Origin: a virus
Length of the DNA stretch: 24,131 bases
Virus record (IMG/VR): IMGVR_UViG_3300006875_000161
Coordinates: 1 to 24,131 of that record
Direction: 5' to 3' (one strand)
Shown: positions 1 through 21,078 of the stretch, in pieces
Position numbering within the stretch: position 1 is the stretch's first letter
How the letters are laid out: every line of letters begins with the position of its first letter
Notes under the pieces: generated by a model
Told to the model about the DNA's origin: nothing
Databases searched by the model: none
The model's input: the letters and a program-made list of their open reading frames with translations, nothing else
Translations under genes and position numbers: made by a program

Positions 1-96
1 CCCACCACCAACGTTTGATATTGGCTTAGGTTTGGGGGCTTGTTTCTTTTCAGTCTTCTTCTTTTTAGGAGTTGAAGAAGTCTTCTTTGCAGCCAT
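1..96 (-). CDS. Lys-rich protein, N-terminal part only (3' end outside window)
   Basis: Thirty-two codons are open from an ATG at 96 to the window edge, so only the N-terminus is visible. It begins MAAKKTSSTPKKKKTEKKQ and continues with a Lys/Pro-rich stretch and a Gly run at the edge, with no hydrophobic segment. The start codon lies inside the last codons of the preceding 53-aa gene, and AAGGA/GAGAG stretches lie 5' of it, which suggests translational coupling. Basic, Ala/Lys/Pro-rich tails like this occur in phage structural and DNA-associated proteins, but no family can be named. It follows the giant 1778-aa gene and the 53-aa gene on the same strand. What is seen is the open frame and its composition; everything else is unknown. 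Confidence 0.55.
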   Translation of the reverse strand, partial: MAAKKTSSTPKKKKTEKKQAPKPKPISNVGGG

Positions 97-226
97 GTCT
101 CTCTTTTTCCTTGCGTCTTTGCTTGTACTCTAGCTTTTCTTGTTCTTCATACACTTCATCAAAAATGTCGTCTATGTTCTGTGAGTTAGCTAGTTTACGC
201 CAATCATCATTGCTGTACTTACGCAT
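65..226 (-). CDS. Small charged protein of unknown function (53 aa)
   Basis: This complete 53-codon frame starts at an ATG preceded by a good Shine-Dalgarno (AGAGG about 9 nt upstream). The product begins MRKYSNDDWRKLANSQNIDD, then has an acidic stretch and a Lys/Arg-rich segment (residues 28-43) that should form one long charged helix. There are no membrane segments. It lies 47 nt downstream of the stop of the giant gene and its 3' end overlaps the start of the next Lys-rich gene by 32 nt, so the three are probably cotranscribed. The function is not recognisable. The W at position 9 and the IDDIFDEVYEEQ helix could be a protein-interaction segment, but that is only inference from composition. 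Confidence 0.6.
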   Translation of the reverse strand: MRKYSNDDWRKLANSQNIDDIFDEVYEEQEKLEYKQRRKEKERHGCKEDFFNS

Positions 227-273
227 ATTGTTTATTACCTCTAAATATATGCTACTGGTTTTTACCTGTTATT

Positions 274-3200
274 TCAAGATTGTTGATCGTCTTTTTTGAT
301 AGTTGTGTTGTCAAACTGACCTGATAGTTTGGGAGGTGGGGGAGGCATCTGGCGACCTGATGTAGGTGTTAAGGGTATGTTATCAGGAGTTAGGTCGCCT
401 GTTCCAGCTTGAGTCACAGGACCCAATGCTGGTCTAGCTTGTCCTGGAAACGCGGATTCCCGGGATGATGGTGGTATTGATGGAACACTTAGTCCACTAG
501 GAGATGTGGGGTACTCAACATCAGGTGACATAGCGGATATGGTTATTCCGCGTTTACCACGGCCACCTGGTCCTGCTATTTCTGAATACCTTGGGCCTTC
601 ACCTGTATAGGTGACTTCCCCATAGAAGCGTTTGTTTCTATCGTTAACAGAAGCAGTTCTCTTAGGTCCAATTCTTGTGTACTGTCCAGCAGTGACTAAT
701 CTGCTAGTTGGTATTTCGTCGCCTTCTAGGTAAGGCCTTCCAACTGGAGTAGCAGTTGTAGGCATTAGTGTTGGAATACCAGTTCTAGGAGTACTGGGTG
801 GAGTTGGAGCATTAGGCTTTATCCACGACATAACCCTACCACCCCTAGGATCTTCACGAACTTGAATGGTGTCGGGGTCATAGGCTCCGGCCTCTTCTGG
901 AGAAACCGGTTGTTGCTCATTCAGGTTCAGTTGCTTGCTTAGGGTTCCTCCTAAGTTTTTTGGTACAAGAGGAGCTCCATATTCGTTTAACCTTGGTGTG
1001 GTTTTGGGAAGACTCTTTAAGAAAGCAGCTCCATATGGGTCTAAGAAAGCAACTCCATATGAGTAAGTTGTTCTGGTTGCTTTTCTTGCAGCATCAGCTT
1101 TATTGTATTCATGCATTGCTTGACGAGCAGCAGCGTTTTCTTCACGAGTTTTACGTAATGAGAACTCAGATAGTGCATCACTACTTGCAACACCTGATGT
1201 TGCTTGAGCCAAAGCTCCCAACGCTGGAGCGCTTTCGTCTATGTCTACGTTAGTTGCGGGCTCTTCTGCAGGGGCTTTTGGTGTTGGGCCAAGAATCTCT
1301 TTAACTGATTTACCAGCACTTTGACGCGTAGAACCTTTAGCAGTTCTAAGCATATTTGGAGTAGAAATAGAAAGGTTTATTTTCAGTTTCTGTGCAAGCT
1401 TAATTCGTTCCGCTGTGCTTTCTGGGATATCTATCTTAGAAGGGTCCCTAGGTTCAACACCAGTTGTTGGAATATCAAATTGCGAACCTAGGGCTCTAGA
1501 TCGTGGTGCTGGGGTTGTTTCCCCAGTTGCTTCTTCTACCGAGGCCATATCACCAGCCATCTCTGACCGTGATGTTCGATAATTAAGATCATTCAAGGTG
1601 CTGATGCTGACACCTTGTGGCACTGGTGTCAAGAACGGCTTTGTTGTACCGGCGTCATCACCCGTTGGCACGCGAAGGCTATCTAGAACACTGTGTATTA
1701 GTCCTTCATCTCCAAGCTTCATTTCACCAGAACGGGTAACAAGACCTTTTTCTCTTAATCTTTCTGATTTTGTTCTGGCAACTGTTACAGGAGTAGCTTC
1801 TTTTACAATGTATTTTCCTGTTGGGTTTTCTGTTGGGTGCCAGACTCCACCTTCATCTTGTATATCTAATTCTGATTTAACTGATACACCAGGAGTTTTG
1901 TTCTTACCCTTGCCCAACTGTTCGGCGGTTGTGACAAACGGAGTTAATTTAACGTTTGCTCTTTTGGTTACCGGGTTACCAGCCTTGTCAAGTACAGGAA
2001 CTGGGTTACCACGTGCGTCTACGGTTGGTTTACCACTCTCGTCTGTTACATACTCTGGAAAGTTTCTCTCTTCAGTTTCTTTTATAACTGGGTTTCCTTC
2101 AGAATCCAGTACCGCTTTTCCGTGCTTGTCTTTCTCTATTTCATAATAGAATTTTCTTGGCTTTGGATTTCCAGCTGCGTCAGTTCCCGCAACGGAGCGT
2201 GTTGGGGAAGTACCAGCAACGGTTGGGTCTATACGTTGTTGCAAAGCACGCAACATGCGAACACGTATTTCGGTTTCATCGTCAGGGTTGACTACTGAAT
2301 CATCGTCATCTCGTTGAATAGGTGTACCGGATTCGTCAAGTCTGACGTAACCTTTTGCGGTGGTTTTAAACCCTAATGCTTCTTCAATTTTGGCAATATG
2401 TTCACTGACCGCTTTTCGTCCAGCTAGATTTACTACTCGTTTTTGAGCAGACGTCCTTTGTCTGTGACGCTTTTTCTCTTCAGGAGAAGCACCTGGTGCT
2501 AGAGGTTCAATAGGCATAAACGTTGGGTTGACTGTTCCGTCTTTTCTAAGTGCCATTGGGTGGCTACCTTCACGGATTTGCCGCATAACGTCAGCTTCAG
2601 CTTTAGATTTTATGTCTTTTATTGCAGCAAGGTCAGCAAGTCCTTGCTCAACATATGGTTTTCTTTGCGCTAGAGCCTCAACCCCTGCTCGTAGATCTTC
2701 TTCATCGCGGCTTCCTTGTTCAGCTCTGTAGTCTTCCAGTTTTGCTGCTTCTTCATCGGTGTACATTGGTTTTTCACCAATGGACTTCAAGTATTCTCTT
2801 TGTTCTGCCTCTGAACGCAACCGCACCGGCCCTGTTTCACCAGCAGCCTTTCGTTTTAATATATCTTTTTGTATATTTGCAAACATTGGGAGTACAAGCT
2901 GCGAACTGATTACACCAGGTATACCCTTTTCTTTAAAGCCTGGTATAAACTGTTCAATTTTGTCTGCAGTATCTTCTTCAATTGTTGGGCCTACTGGCTT
3001 GAGGCCTTTAGCAGTAGGGACAATTCGACGCACTACTCCTTCTTCAGGAGTTTCTACCTTTGTGACATTGCCAGCTTCATCAGTTGATTCTTTTTCAACC
3101 ATCTTTGTTGAATAGTCATAGTCAGTCCATCTTGGATCTGCAGTATCAACGTTTGTTAGTACTTCTTCTCCACCTTTGAACTTAAGTTTTTCTGAAACGC

Positions 3201-5610
3201 CTGCAGGTATTCTTACGTTACCAGTTGCTGGATCTATCCTGGTGTCACTTCTATACACACCAGCTGGTTGTGGGGCAACGTAGTAACTTGGAACACGCAT
3301 TGCATTTACAGTTGCGTTATTTGCCATCTCTTCAAGACTGACATCGGCTGATTTTAGACGCTTTGCATTTCTGCGAAGGATTACTCGCCGTTGCCCTGAA
3401 CGTGTACGTTTACCTGTTGTTGGGTCAGTAACAACTTGTTCAGATCCTTTGACTTCTTTTAGTTCTCCACCCTGAGCAAGTTCAGATGCCACTACATCAG
3501 TATCTAAACCAATGTCAGTCAATTCACCGTTTTGTTTTCTGGTGTATTGTCGAGAACCCCGTGCTTCGTCTTGTGCTTCTACTGCTTCTTGAAGTTTATC
3601 AAAGTAAGCTTGTTGTTCTTCATCAGACATATCTTCTACGTCTTTTGTTGCTGGAGCCCCGGGAATAGTACGAACATAAGGTTGTGCTGACTTATCAACC
3701 CATGGATATTTAGCTGGATCAAGATTAGTAGTTGGAGTAAAAGGACCACCAAAACCCGATTGATTGCCAGATGGGTCTACTTTAACAGTAGCTTCTCCAG
3801 TGTCTGGGTCGTATGTTTCAGTGCGCGATGTTACAGTGGCTGTGTACGGCTCGCTTCTTGTAGCACGCATTGCTTCAGCTTCTTGTTCTTGTTTTGAACC
3901 TGCGGTGCTGACGCCCTCTAAATATGACTCTGCGATTTGTTTTTCATAAGGAGTTAGTGTTGGAGAAGTTTCATCGGGTTCAACAGAGAATGGCCCAGTG
4001 ACACTAGCCCTACTGGGTACTACTTCTTCTTTTCCTGTACCAGAAGTTTCCAATGGCTGCGTTTCAGCTTGACCCGACCTATCTTTTTTCCAAACGAGTT
4101 TTCCTCTTGAGTCCCTAGCTTGACGCCCGGTATTGGGGTCCATTACTGGAGTTTTTACCAACTTAGATTCACTTGGTCTTCGTCTTACTGTGTAGTTACC
4201 TCTATATACAGGCTCTGCTACTCCGCGAGCTGCTTCGCCCTCTCGCAAACGCATTCTGTTTAATTCTGGGGTTATTAAAAGGTTTGCTGCAGCTGAAAGT
4301 CTTGCAGAGTCAGTTGTGTCAAACTGACTTGACAGAGCTTTGGAAGATTGATTTGTTTGTAGCATGCTACGTTCGAGATCTGACGCTTCTGCTAGAGGGT
4401 TAGGAACATCTCCTTGCCCTGGTGTAGGTATAGCACCAAGTTCTGAAAGAGCTCTGCTTTCAGTATCGGCAGCTGATCTTGCTGAGCCTTTTACTATGTC
4501 TTTTCCACCTTTACCAAAGGTAATAGCACCAGCTTCACCTGGTTCTACCAGTGAAGAGCTTTCGGTAAACGGCGTCGTTGGAATGTCTAACTGCTCGGAT
4601 ACATCCTGAGCGGCTTGTTCATCGTCAGCTCTTGGGGCCTCATACATTGTGTTTGGAGCAAGATCATCATCTGCTGCATCTGCTCCCCATCCTTGCATAT
4701 ACAGAATGTGAGATACGTAGTCTTTTGCAGTTGGCTTTCTACCACCTGGGCCAACTCTACCCATGCTGTCTGCGTTTCTAGAGCCAGGTGGAGCAGTAAG
4801 TAACGGACGAACTTCTTTTGATTTAAACGTTTTTGCGTATGTCGCCAGGTCTTCTGGATGAAGTTCTGGTGAGTCTGACCCACCTGAGTGGCCTTCCTCA
4901 CCCGGTAGAACTACCCTTATGTTAGTGCGTCCTTCTACGGGCTTATGACCTTTCCCTGGTACATACAGATGTAGGTTTTCGGCTTCCTTAGTTCTAACTA
5001 CTTTAGAACCAGTACCAGTAACTACAGTTTTGGGTCCAACTTGCGACGTACCACCCTGTATACGTGGGGTGGCTCCCGTACCTTCAAGCTGTACCGTGCC
5101 TGATGGATCTGGTACTACTACAGTTTTTCCAGTATCAGGGTCTGTTATCTTAGTTTGTCCCCGCTGTTTAAGAGATAGAGTTTCTTTTACATCAGCAATA
5201 TCTGAAGTTTTTGGGAAAGCCGCAACCCGAGCAGCACGTGCAGATACTACATCTGCTCTTTCTTTTGCAGTTCCAAGTTTCTTAACGCGCCCCGCTGCAG
5301 CTGCTTTAACAGTCTCTGTTTTTGAAGAACCAACACGTCTGTTTCGTTCTGGGTTTTCTTTATCAGACTTAAGTTCTTTACTTACTCTGTCCTTGGCAGT
5401 TTTAACTAGATCACTTACTACGGCGCGTACAACCGGGCTTGCGGCTTTAAAAAGGTCTCTATACTCAGGAGTTTTTGGAACTTGTTGAGCTTTTCCCTCT
5501 TTTGCAACGTAGAACCCACCTGAGGCCTTTATTAGCTTTTCTAGATGAGCACTATCCTCAGCTGATAGCTGGCTAACTTCAGGCGTCTCTTCTTTTGGGT
5601 TCTCGGCCAT
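274..5610 (-). CDS. Giant low-complexity, repeat-containing phage protein (1778 aa)
   Basis: The single largest gene of the window. It has an ATG start with GGAG seven nt upstream. The protein is almost entirely hydrophilic, rich in Pro, Thr, Ser, Gly, Glu and Lys, with no signal peptide or membrane span, so it is predicted to be largely disordered or a chain of short turn-rich modules. Two kinds of repeat are visible. A short motif, L-(S/G)-x-Q-(F/L)-D-(I/N)-(P)-T-T, recurs near residues 338-346, 424-432, 1373-1382 and 1761-1770 (the last nine residues follow it). Turn units of the type D-P-x-T-G-(K/N/E) and D-x-x-G-(N/K)-P-V recur at about residues 151-171, 489-511, 597-617, 727-804 and 1141-1214. 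An octapeptide Y-G-(V/A)-A-F-L-x-x is tandemly repeated at about 1516-1532. The N-terminal 120 residues are more helical and basic. A length of 1778 aa suggests a virion, scaffold or ejected protein, but it lacks the hydrophobic and coiled-coil look of a tape measure. Function is unknown. Confidence 0.9.
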   Translation of the reverse strand: MAENPKEETPEVSQLSAEDSAHLEKLIKASGGFYVAKEGKAQQVPKTPEYRDLFKAASPVVRAVVSDLVKTAKDRVSKELKSDKENPERNRRVGSSKTETVKAAAAGRVKKLGTAKERADVVSARAARVAAFPKTSDIADVKETLSLKQRGQTKITDPDTGKTVVVPDPSGTVQLEGTGATPRIQGGTSQVGPKTVVTGTGSKVVRTKEAENLHLYVPGKGHKPVEGRTNIRVVLPGEEGHSGGSDSPELHPEDLATYAKTFKSKEVRPLLTAPPGSRNADSMGRVGPGGRKPTAKDYVSHILYMQGWGADAADDDLAPNTMYEAPRADDEQAAQDVSEQLDIPTTPFTESSSLVEPGEAGAITFGKGGKDIVKGSARSAADTESRALSELGAIPTPGQGDVPNPLAEASDLERSMLQTNQSSKALSSQFDTTDSARLSAAANLLITPELNRMRLREGEAARGVAEPVYRGNYTVRRRPSESKLVKTPVMDPNTGRQARDSRGKLVWKKDRSGQAETQPLETSGTGKEEVVPSRASVTGPFSVEPDETSPTLTPYEKQIAESYLEGVSTAGSKQEQEAEAMRATRSEPYTATVTSRTETYDPDTGEATVKVDPSGNQSGFGGPFTPTTNLDPAKYPWVDKSAQPYVRTIPGAPATKDVEDMSDEEQQAYFDKLQEAVEAQDEARGSRQYTRKQNGELTDIGLDTDVVASELAQGGELKEVKGSEQVVTDPTTGKRTRSGQRRVILRRNAKRLKSADVSLEEMANNATVNAMRVPSYYVAPQPAGVYRSDTRIDPATGNVRIPAGVSEKLKFKGGEEVLTNVDTADPRWTDYDYSTKMVEKESTDEAGNVTKVETPEEGVVRRIVPTAKGLKPVGPTIEEDTADKIEQFIPGFKEKGIPGVISSQLVLPMFANIQKDILKRKAAGETGPVRLRSEAEQREYLKSIGEKPMYTDEEAAKLEDYRAEQGSRDEEDLRAGVEALAQRKPYVEQGLADLAAIKDIKSKAEADVMRQIREGSHPMALRKDGTVNPTFMPIEPLAPGASPEEKKRHRQRTSAQKRVVNLAGRKAVSEHIAKIEEALGFKTTAKGYVRLDESGTPIQRDDDDSVVNPDDETEIRVRMLRALQQRIDPTVAGTSPTRSVAGTDAAGNPKPRKFYYEIEKDKHGKAVLDSEGNPVIKETEERNFPEYVTDESGKPTVDARGNPVPVLDKAGNPVTKRANVKLTPFVTTAEQLGKGKNKTPGVSVKSELDIQDEGGVWHPTENPTGKYIVKEATPVTVARTKSERLREKGLVTRSGEMKLGDEGLIHSVLDSLRVPTGDDAGTTKPFLTPVPQGVSISTLNDLNYRTSRSEMAGDMASVEEATGETTPAPRSRALGSQFDIPTTGVEPRDPSKIDIPESTAERIKLAQKLKINLSISTPNMLRTAKGSTRQSAGKSVKEILGPTPKAPAEEPATNVDIDESAPALGALAQATSGVASSDALSEFSLRKTREENAAARQAMHEYNKADAARKATRTTYSYGVAFLDPYGAAFLKSLPKTTPRLNEYGAPLVPKNLGGTLSKQLNLNEQQPVSPEEAGAYDPDTIQVREDPRGGRVMSWIKPNAPTPPSTPRTGIPTLMPTTATPVGRPYLEGDEIPTSRLVTAGQYTRIGPKRTASVNDRNKRFYGEVTYTGEGPRYSEIAGPGGRGKRGITISAMSPDVEYPTSPSGLSVPSIPPSSRESAFPGQARPALGPVTQAGTGDLTPDNIPLTPTSGRQMPPPPPKLSGQFDNTTIKKDDQQS
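1017..1064 (-). repeat. Two tandem copies of a 24-nt unit inside the giant gene
   Basis: Positions 1017-1040 and 1041-1064 are near-identical 24-nt units (core gaaagca-g/a-ctccatatg-g/a-gt). On the minus strand they encode consecutive octapeptides of the form YGVAFLDP / YGAAFLKS. The frame is preserved, which points to an in-frame duplication. A weaker related peptide, EYGAPLVPKN, follows about 16 residues later. Confidence 0.75.
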
Positions 5611-5670: not shown

Positions 5671-5952
5671 TTACCGAGTAACTGGTTTAAAAGAGATGGC
5701 AGAAATGGTTTCTCCGTTGTCACCAGGGATATCATCAAACCCTATAATGAAGCACAAATCAACACCTCTTGGTGCTACAAAACCTCGTGCTATAGCGCAA
5801 GCTTTAACAGCTTGGTTGACTGCACTAGCACCTATTGCGCGCATCTTTGGAGACTGGCCGGCAATTACTGACCTGGCGACAATCGATCCAACACTTTGTG
5901 GGTTACTACCACCTGATACTTTTACAATATCATCTACTGGTTCTTGAGACAT
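5671..5952 (-). CDS. spoVS: SpoVS-like (stage V sporulation protein S family) small nucleic-acid-binding protein
   Basis: The 93-aa product has the SpoVS signature almost throughout. VKVSGGSNPQSVGSIVARS (from residue 11) matches the family's KVS-x-x-S-x-P-x-S-V-A-G-A start. AIGASAVNQAVKACAIARGF and VAPRGVDLCFIIGF match the highly conserved core AIGAGALNQAVKA-IARGFVAP-GVDL. Its length equals that of typical SpoVS proteins plus a short N-terminal tail. Members are small Alba-like proteins thought to bind nucleic acid; in Bacillus SpoVS affects sporulation and septation. The ATG has a strong GGAG seven nt upstream. It sits at the 3' end of the replication operon, after the Holliday-junction resolvase and a small hairpin. 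In a phage it could coat DNA or RNA or interfere with host differentiation; both roles are inference. Confidence 0.88.
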   Translation of the reverse strand: MSQEPVDDIVKVSGGSNPQSVGSIVARSVIAGQSPKMRAIGASAVNQAVKACAIARGFVAPRGVDLCFIIGFDDIPGDNGETISAISFKPVTR

Positions 5953-20108: not shown

Positions 20109-20196
20109 TGGACCACTGAGGTTAGCGCCACCTGTTGCTGTCCGCAACCATTGTCGAGATGGTATTATTTGGGGTGACCGTTTGACTAGGAGCACA
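20109..20196. promoter_or_regulatory. Divergent intergenic region between the replication operon and the Dps island
   Basis: These 88 bp separate the minus-strand initiator start from the plus-strand Dps start and must hold promoters in both directions. For the plus strand, an extended -10 (TGG-TATTAT) lies at 20160-20168, about 28 nt before the Dps ATG. No clear -35 is visible. For the minus strand only A+T-rich AATAAT on the complementary side is seen, so that promoter remains undefined. Confidence 0.45.
20160..20168 (+). promoter_or_regulatory. Candidate extended -10 promoter for the Dps island
   Basis: TGGTATTAT is a TGn-TATTAT extended -10 box. Its predicted start point (near 20175) leaves a short leader containing AGGAG, four nt from the Dps ATG at 20197. 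The same nine bases occur upstream of the giant gene on the minus strand. Confidence 0.35.
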
Positions 20197-20631
20197 ATGG
20201 AAGAATTAATTAAAGCTTTAAAAGTACTCGTGTCGGACGTAGTTACATTTTACTTTATGGCCCATGGGTACCATTGGAATGTAGAAGGGCCTGACTTCAG
20301 TCAATATCACGATTTGTTCTCAGACATCTATGAAGACGCCTACGGGAGCATCGACCCTATTGCAGAGAACATCCGTAAGTTAGATGACTACGCTCCATTT
20401 AGTTTAAAGAAGTTTAATGAGTTAACTACGGTACAGTTTAAAGATGTTGAGCCATCCCCAAAAGCAATGGCAAAAGCTTTGCTTACCGCCAATGAATCTG
20501 TAATTAAATCACTTAATGATACCTTTAAAAAAGCAACTAAAGCAGATGAACAAGGTATTGCGGATTTTATATCTGGACGAATTGATATGCACAAAAAATG
20601 GGCGTGGCAACTCCGCGCCTCAACCAAGTGA
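20197..20631 (+). CDS. dps: Dps/ferritin-like DNA-protection protein
   Basis: The 144-aa protein begins MEELIKALKVLVSDVVTFYF and carries the Dps hallmark AHGYHWNVEGPDF (HWN, H26), then YHDLFSDIYED and IDPIAENIRKL. Aligned to E. coli Dps, H26, H38, D53 and E57 match ferroxidase residues H51, H63, D78 and E82; the position matching D67 is S42, with Asp next to it (D43). Dps dodecamers store iron and bind DNA. There is no Lys-rich N-terminal tail, so DNA binding would depend on other surfaces. AGGAG stands four nt before the ATG; an in-frame TTG at 20182 is less likely. It is first in a plus-strand island opposite to all neighbouring genes. Confidence 0.88.
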   Translation: MEELIKALKVLVSDVVTFYFMAHGYHWNVEGPDFSQYHDLFSDIYEDAYGSIDPIAENIRKLDDYAPFSLKKFNELTTVQFKDVEPSPKAMAKALLTANESVIKSLNDTFKKATKADEQGIADFISGRIDMHKKWAWQLRASTK

Positions 20632-20638
20632 GGTAACC

Positions 20639-20803
20639 ATGGCAGCTAAGAAAAAACACCCAGGATTCAAGGCAGCACAAAAAGATATTGCCAAGAAAGA
20701 GGGCATCAGCGAAGAACAAGCTGGAGCAATACTTGCATCTAGTTCTCGTAAAGCTAGCCCCGCAGCTAAGAAGAAAAACCCCAATCTAAAGAAGGTGAAG
20801 TGA
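20639..20803 (+). CDS. Lys-rich small protein (54 aa)
   Basis: The ATG follows GAGGT by four nt, only 7 nt after the Dps stop. The product has a basic start (MAAKKKHPGFKAAQKDIAKK), a middle helix with EEQAGAILASSSRKAS, and a basic tail (AAKKKNPNLKKVK). This shape, a short conserved helix-turn segment flanked by Lys clusters, is seen in many small phage proteins of unknown role. It is likely DNA-associated by charge. It ends in a TGATG overlap with the next gene. Confidence 0.8.
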   Translation: MAAKKKHPGFKAAQKDIAKKEGISEEQAGAILASSSRKASPAAKKKNPNLKKVK

Positions 20804-21078
20804 TGGCTAAAAGTGCAGCATGGCAACGCAAAGAAGGTAAAGACGATAAGGGTGGCCTTAACGAAAAAGGCCGTAAATCCTATGAGCGGGAGCACCCAGG
20901 TAGCGACCTAAAACCACCCGTGTCAAAAGAAAAAGCAGCTAAATCCAAGAAGGACGCTGCCAGACGTGACTCTTTTTGTGCACGCATGGAAGGTATGAAG
21001 AAGAAGAATACTTCAAAGAAGACAGCAAATGACCCCAATTCACGGATTAACAAGTCTTTGCGTAAGTGGGATTGCTGA
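20803..21078 (+). CDS. Basic small protein, DUF6321-like (91 aa)
   Basis: The ATG at 20803 overlaps the previous stop, with AAGG seven nt upstream. The N-terminus SAAWQRKEGKDDKGGLNEKG, followed by RKSYEREHPGSDLKPPV and later DSFCARMEGM, matches from memory a small basic family (WQRKEGK-x-GGLN-x-KGR-x-SY ... FCARM-GM) present in phages and bacteria; the DUF number is recalled, not searched. It is rich in Lys and has no membrane segment. The stop is TGA directly joined to the ATG of the next, frameshifted frame. Confidence 0.78.
   Translation: MAKSAAWQRKEGKDDKGGLNEKGRKSYEREHPGSDLKPPVSKEKAAKSKKDAARRDSFCARMEGMKKKNTSKKTANDPNSRINKSLRKWDC

Follow-up and report, generated by a model that had tools for sequence, protein, structure and literature searches.

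A recurrent Q-F peptide as a candidate docking tag on a giant phage protein and on small enzymes of its relatives

A 24-kb IMG/VR virus record (24,131 nucleotides, analysed whole and hereafter called the window) encodes a giant protein with conserved copies of a short peptide, [LM]-[SG]-x-Q-F. The peptide occurs above chance, is conserved in divergent homologues, is common to unrelated proteins and shifts position within one protein family. From these patterns we consider it likely to be a docking tag shared by the giant and by small enzymes, and its use for packaging into the virion is plausible by analogy with known phages. The first-pass annotation had proposed multivalent docking through a motif repeated in an otherwise disordered chain; conservation of the motif, its excess over shuffled and permuted controls, and its presence on unrelated proteins support that proposal, and the motif proves more widespread than was visible there.

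The giant protein and its motif copies

As first annotated, positions 274–5610 form a single open reading frame of 1778 aa, which lies on the minus strand with an ATG start. It is the last full gene of the window's replication-side operon, behind a SpoVS-like gene (5671–5952, minus strand; Pfam SpoVS, 3.7e-20) that serves as the upstream syntenic marker. Elsewhere the window encodes RecA, PolA, DnaB, primase, an SNF2 helicase, a Cas4-like nuclease and two resolvase-like genes; a Dps/ferritin-like gene with two small basic genes behind it, one of them DUF6321, occupies 20182–21078 on the plus strand, opposite to the remainder of the window. Rfam and tRNA scans of the window returned no matches.

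Profile searches of the giant against Pfam, PHROGs, NCBIfam, the PDB and annotated phages gave no match. The protein is rich in proline (8.3%) and poor in tryptophan and cysteine (six in total). Its initial description as low-complexity was overstated: mean entropy in 100-residue windows is 3.83 bits, mildly low against the 4.0–4.07 (about 4.04) bits of the window's folded proteins. Two segments modelled with AlphaFold, from six or seven homologous sequences, were mostly of low confidence outside a predicted helical hairpin (residues 952–1079; 2374–2757, minus strand), whose first helix reached a pLDDT of about 90 and which is the best-conserved block of the giant in the alignment. The low confidence agrees with disorder without proving it, and the notion of a disordered chain would apply to most of the modelled sequence, the hairpin excepted. 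Foldseek of the hairpin, using a model of mostly low confidence, retrieved nothing at E <= 0.001 from viral models. A segment at 1081–1179 (minus strand) aligns with the GreA coiled coil of one homologue (L003; REENAAARQAMHE) and is possibly a remnant of that coiled coil; Pfam did not find the Gre N- and C-terminal domains in the window giant. The overall explanation weighed below would make the giant a long phage protein that diverges fast and is disordered over most of its length.

The tripeptide Q[FL]D is found at residues 340, 429, 1377 and 1765, within a few residues of the positions originally given, the last about 12 residues before the end. These four sites exceed chance (0.30 expected in the shuffled protein, p about 2e-4), as does QFD alone (three observed, 0.06 expected). 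No single copy fits the proposed consensus, L-x-x-Q-(F/L)-D-(I/N)-(P)-T-T, as written; copies 2–4 share the core L-[SG]-x-Q-F. On the minus strand, copy 2 is LSSQF (ALSSQFDTTD; residues 426–430, 4321–4335), copy 3 is LGSQF (ALGSQFDIPTT; residues 1374–1378, 1477–1491) and copy 4 is LSGQF (residues 1762–1766, 313–327), within the C-terminal KLSGQFDNTTIKKDDQQS. Copies 2 and 4, which had been noted to match at the DNA level, do so only in using identical codons for QFD, and the codons of copy 3 differ.

Copies 2 and 4 survive in homologues diverged to about 20% identity. Aligned counterparts of copy 2 read LSGQF in a 63%-identical homologue (L005) and MGPQF in L015 and L030, and are lost from L003 and L013; the core of copy 3 is identical in L005. 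The presumed copy 1, VSEQLD (residues 337–342; 4585–4602, minus strand), is VSEQVE in L005, where the Q and F of copies 2–4 are kept, and is missing from the other homologues; it is therefore probably not a functional copy.

Giants at the same locus and the Streptomyces relatives

Related contigs, retrieved through the Cas4-like gene, carry portal, terminase and capsid genes and, as recognised by sequence, contractile-tail genes; IMG/VR holds at least 574 contigs related by capsid. Among annotated phages the nearest belong to the BRock group, from Streptomyces (Cas4 about 40% and capsid about 61% identical), and an actinobacterial host is therefore likely. Downstream of SpoVS, the related contigs encode proteins of 987–1953 aa, one of them 63% identical to the window giant and others about 20% identical and homologous in segments; some are positional counterparts only, with no detectable similarity. 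Eight of 11 same-locus giants have QF within their last 20 residues, where shuffles predict about 0.016 each. The C-terminal variants comprise LSPQFKNT, LSPQFDNT, LSSGQFK, LQSGQFDK, GGSQFNQ and NSIQFGQ, and several giants stop one or two residues past QF (SGQFK, SGQFDK, GSQFNQ); L015, L017 and G016 have no QF at the C-terminus.

The C-termini of the window giant and of L003 are not independent, because near-identical flanking DNA (97% over 318 bases, window 1–330 against L003 17,200–18,400) begins inside the tag; in L013, flanking identity begins only past it. The L003 giant (L003:12272-18130) contains a complete GreA domain (residues 1577–1722) with a GDLRENAEY acidic tip, and the neighbouring Cas4-like protein is 99% identical to that of the window. 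The giant gene appears to have been swapped between these near-identical phages, the C-terminal tag marking the junction. A series of short genes with apparently disordered products (MRKYSNDDWRKLANS..., MAAKKTSSTPKKKK...; window 1–273 and G003 51976–54428) is found downstream of the giant and is conserved whereas the giant varies.

The annotated Streptomyces phages BRock, GiJojo, LuckySocke, Alone3 and pSt2308, with capsids about 61% identical, lack a giant downstream of SpoVS. In this group a disordered-looking protein of 252–388 aa, adjoining a tgt-like gene, has MG[AS]QFK close to the N-terminus together with another copy of QF, and MG[AS]QFK is kept in LuckySocke (isolated on the laboratory strain S. 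lividans JI 1326), GiJojo, pSt2308 and BRock although the middle of the protein has diverged.

The peptide on small proteins of the phage group

Scans of the related contigs found the same core at the termini of small proteins that are unrelated to one another and are encoded in variable cassettes. Both contig sets provide examples at the N-terminus (MSASGSLSSQFK, MPLGPQFSNTY, MPRFGSQFNNTY, MPIFGPQF) and at or near the C-terminus (HMSPQFKDVPLPGMDGF, HMGPQFK, HLGDQFKD). We evaluated 2349 proteins in 695 clusters, counting a match as terminal when it began no more than 20 residues from the N-terminus or stopped no more than 25 from the C-terminus. Terminal [LM][SG].QF was found in 13 clusters (2.05 in shuffles, maximum 6 of 100) and terminal [GS][SGPND]QF in 22 (5.07 in shuffles, maximum 11), values that are somewhat optimistic because the terminal windows and the second expression were chosen after the second contig set had been listed. 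Eight permuted control motifs stayed at or near shuffle level. We built the core expression on the giant and the first contigs, before the second set was fetched, and, so fixed, it gave like terminal matches on the later contigs. Scans of terminase, portal, capsid and putative scaffold gave no terminal tag, and the long contigs G023, G024 and G026, which are fragments from a third batch, had no tag at all. Two apparent matches were set aside: VFGGQFDTYV, whose protein belongs to a conserved family that starts like a signal peptide, and RLSSQFxHV, which has a conserved internal position in the SNF2 helicase and was regarded as unrelated.

The tag is concentrated on effector-type proteins (13/33 vs. 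52/2316 of the others; Fisher 6e-13, with related sequences counted). In this contractile-tailed phage group, tagged small proteins include ADP-ribosyltransferases, metallopeptidases, GNAT acetyltransferases and ParB-like proteins. Pfam support comprises PARP at 4e-9 and ART-PolyVal at 5.2e-5 (below the curated cut-off) for the ADP-ribosyltransferase (ART)-like proteins and 3.2e-5 for the GNAT protein; matches are weak and below cut-off for the M78-like metallopeptidase (0.0016) and for the ParB-like protein (ParB_N, 0.031). Five of the six zincin-type proteins in the pool are tagged.

One ART-like family, defined by multiple alignment (pairwise BLASTP of two members is weak, E 0.012), has four members with an N-terminal tag directly ahead of a V-[FY]-H core; two members without it have KHLGPQF or KHLNTQQF near the C-terminus. 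Switching ends within the family, the tag behaves as a movable docking tag; such mobility is hard to attribute to ancestry and would be expected of a docking peptide. Annotated phages yielded no relatives of two tagged ART-like proteins, and prophage-like capsid relatives in actinobacterial genomes yielded no clear tagged genes, although ORF calling in that high-GC DNA was poor. No description of such a tag turned up in the literature searched.

Docking, packaging and alternative readings

Since the small enzymes bear the giant's tag, both they and the giant appear to be clients of a single receptor, which inverts the earlier suggestion of a packaged enzyme as the giant's partner. The best explanation, to which we give an even chance taken whole, would run as follows. 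The giant would present a central helical hairpin and three conserved tag copies, one of them C-terminal, and across the phage group the same peptide would act as a transplantable tag, placed N- or C-terminally on small enzymes that target the host. All tagged proteins would dock on a single conserved receptor while the head assembles, whether scaffold, portal or the inside of the capsid, and would be packaged and delivered together with the DNA. The giant's several copies would give high-avidity binding, and the giant may help to fill or organise the load. From the common peptide we infer a single receptor; that it lies in the head is less certain, and is suggested because packaging and injection have been predicted for the same kinds of enzyme in polyvalent proteins (PMC5512222), because T4 loads its internal proteins via a short common peptide and packages an ADP-ribosyltransferase too (PMC9026906), and because most cassettes share a strand with the structural genes.

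Comparison with known systems bears on the packaging step. In T4, the capsid targeting sequence (CTS) is a 10-residue N-terminal propeptide, found on the internal proteins IPI-III and the Alt propeptide and removed by the gp21 protease, and by one proposal it enables phages to load a variety of proteins (PMC9026906). The peptide described here is likewise short and common to otherwise unrelated proteins, some of them host-directed; unlike the CTS, it may be N-terminal, C-terminal or internal, is repeated in the giant and differs in sequence. The tagged small proteins carry ART-PolyVal, zincin metallopeptidase, ParB-like and GNAT domains, kinds of domain whose packaging in polyvalent proteins was predicted by Iyer et al. 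2017 (PMC5512222), and the tag may on these grounds be read as a head-loading signal. In contrast to polyvalent proteins, these domains are separate small proteins sharing a tag and are not fused in one chain, and the window giant has no recognised enzymatic domain (GreA is the one such domain in its L003 homologue). Another very large phage protein is the virion RNA polymerase of N4, and the giant, like it, might be delivered with DNA; the giant, however, lacks a polymerase or peptidase domain and appears mostly disordered. It is plausible, by analogy, that the tag functions like the T4 capsid targeting sequence with a different sequence, and the capsid link that had been suggested for the motif is reasonable on the same grounds. 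More tentatively, and at somewhat less than even odds, we propose a new loading code in a large group of actinobacterial contractile-tailed phages, in which a movable L/M-S/G-x-Q-F would bring into the head both a disordered giant with multiple tags and a changing set of injected host-takeover enzymes, effectors being recruited by gaining the peptide at either end.

The main rival is a receptor outside the virion, in which case the tag would recruit giant and enzymes after infection to an intracellular partner such as host RNA polymerase, the replication machinery or another phage hub. We regard this as unlikely, though the tag statistics are compatible with any common receptor, the GreA domain of the L003 giant points to RNA polymerase, and the giant sits behind replication genes. 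Since the same enzyme cassettes also bear beta-clamp-like QLx[LM]F peptides, these phages probably do have peptides for docking inside the cell. Against this, carriage in the virion has been predicted elsewhere for enzymes of the tagged kinds (PMC5512222), and most cassettes are on the structural-gene strand.

That the repeats have no function and stem from shared ancestry or gene-end recombination, together with composition bias, is improbable: the edge of near-identical DNA at the window and L003 C-termini would fit such an origin, but in L013 that identity starts past the tag, the tag occurs at both ends of and inside proteins of unrelated families, and it exceeds shuffles where permuted controls do not. 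A prohead protease site marking packaged or scaffold proteins for processing, quite improbable in our estimate, would suit sites near termini and scattered along a long chain, and the T4 targeting sequences are themselves cleaved (PMC9026906); yet capsid and putative scaffold, the usual substrates, showed no such terminal site in scans, and cutting the copies that lie one or two residues before the end would remove almost nothing. Least probable of all is a beta-sliding-clamp-binding motif of the QxxLF type. QFD and QLD, with Q followed by F/L and D, do resemble clamp peptides, and these phages have true QLxLF-like peptides on other proteins, several of them exactly C-terminal; the tag, however, lacks L-F at positions 4–5 (it fits neither QxxLF nor QLxLPL), several copies end one or two residues past QF (SGQFK, SGQFDK, GSQFNQ), conservation precedes the Q ([LM][SG]x) and does not follow it, and QLx[LM]F is present alongside the tag in the same proteins.

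If the tag loads virions, phage proteins delivered with DNA would become predictable from sequence, a standing problem for polyvalent-type effectors, and the peptide would offer a portable means of placing cargo in actinobacterial phage heads. Even with an intracellular receptor, its presence on ARTs, peptidases, acetyltransferases and the giant would define a functional class among unannotated genes.

Further short peptides recur in the cassettes. Beta-clamp-like Q[LM]x[LM]F was found in cassette proteins of G019, G022, G025 and others (e.g., L184 9100–9534), in 14 clusters vs. 6.3 in shuffles (maximum 11 of 60), with control motifs at or below shuffle level; several copies are exactly C-terminal (NQLSLF, DQLTLF, EQLKLF) and others lie near the N-terminus. 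A second common C-terminal ending, LPGM[ED]GF, is present on several cassette proteins, one of them zincin-type (G019 80561–85219, G018 79179–79913).
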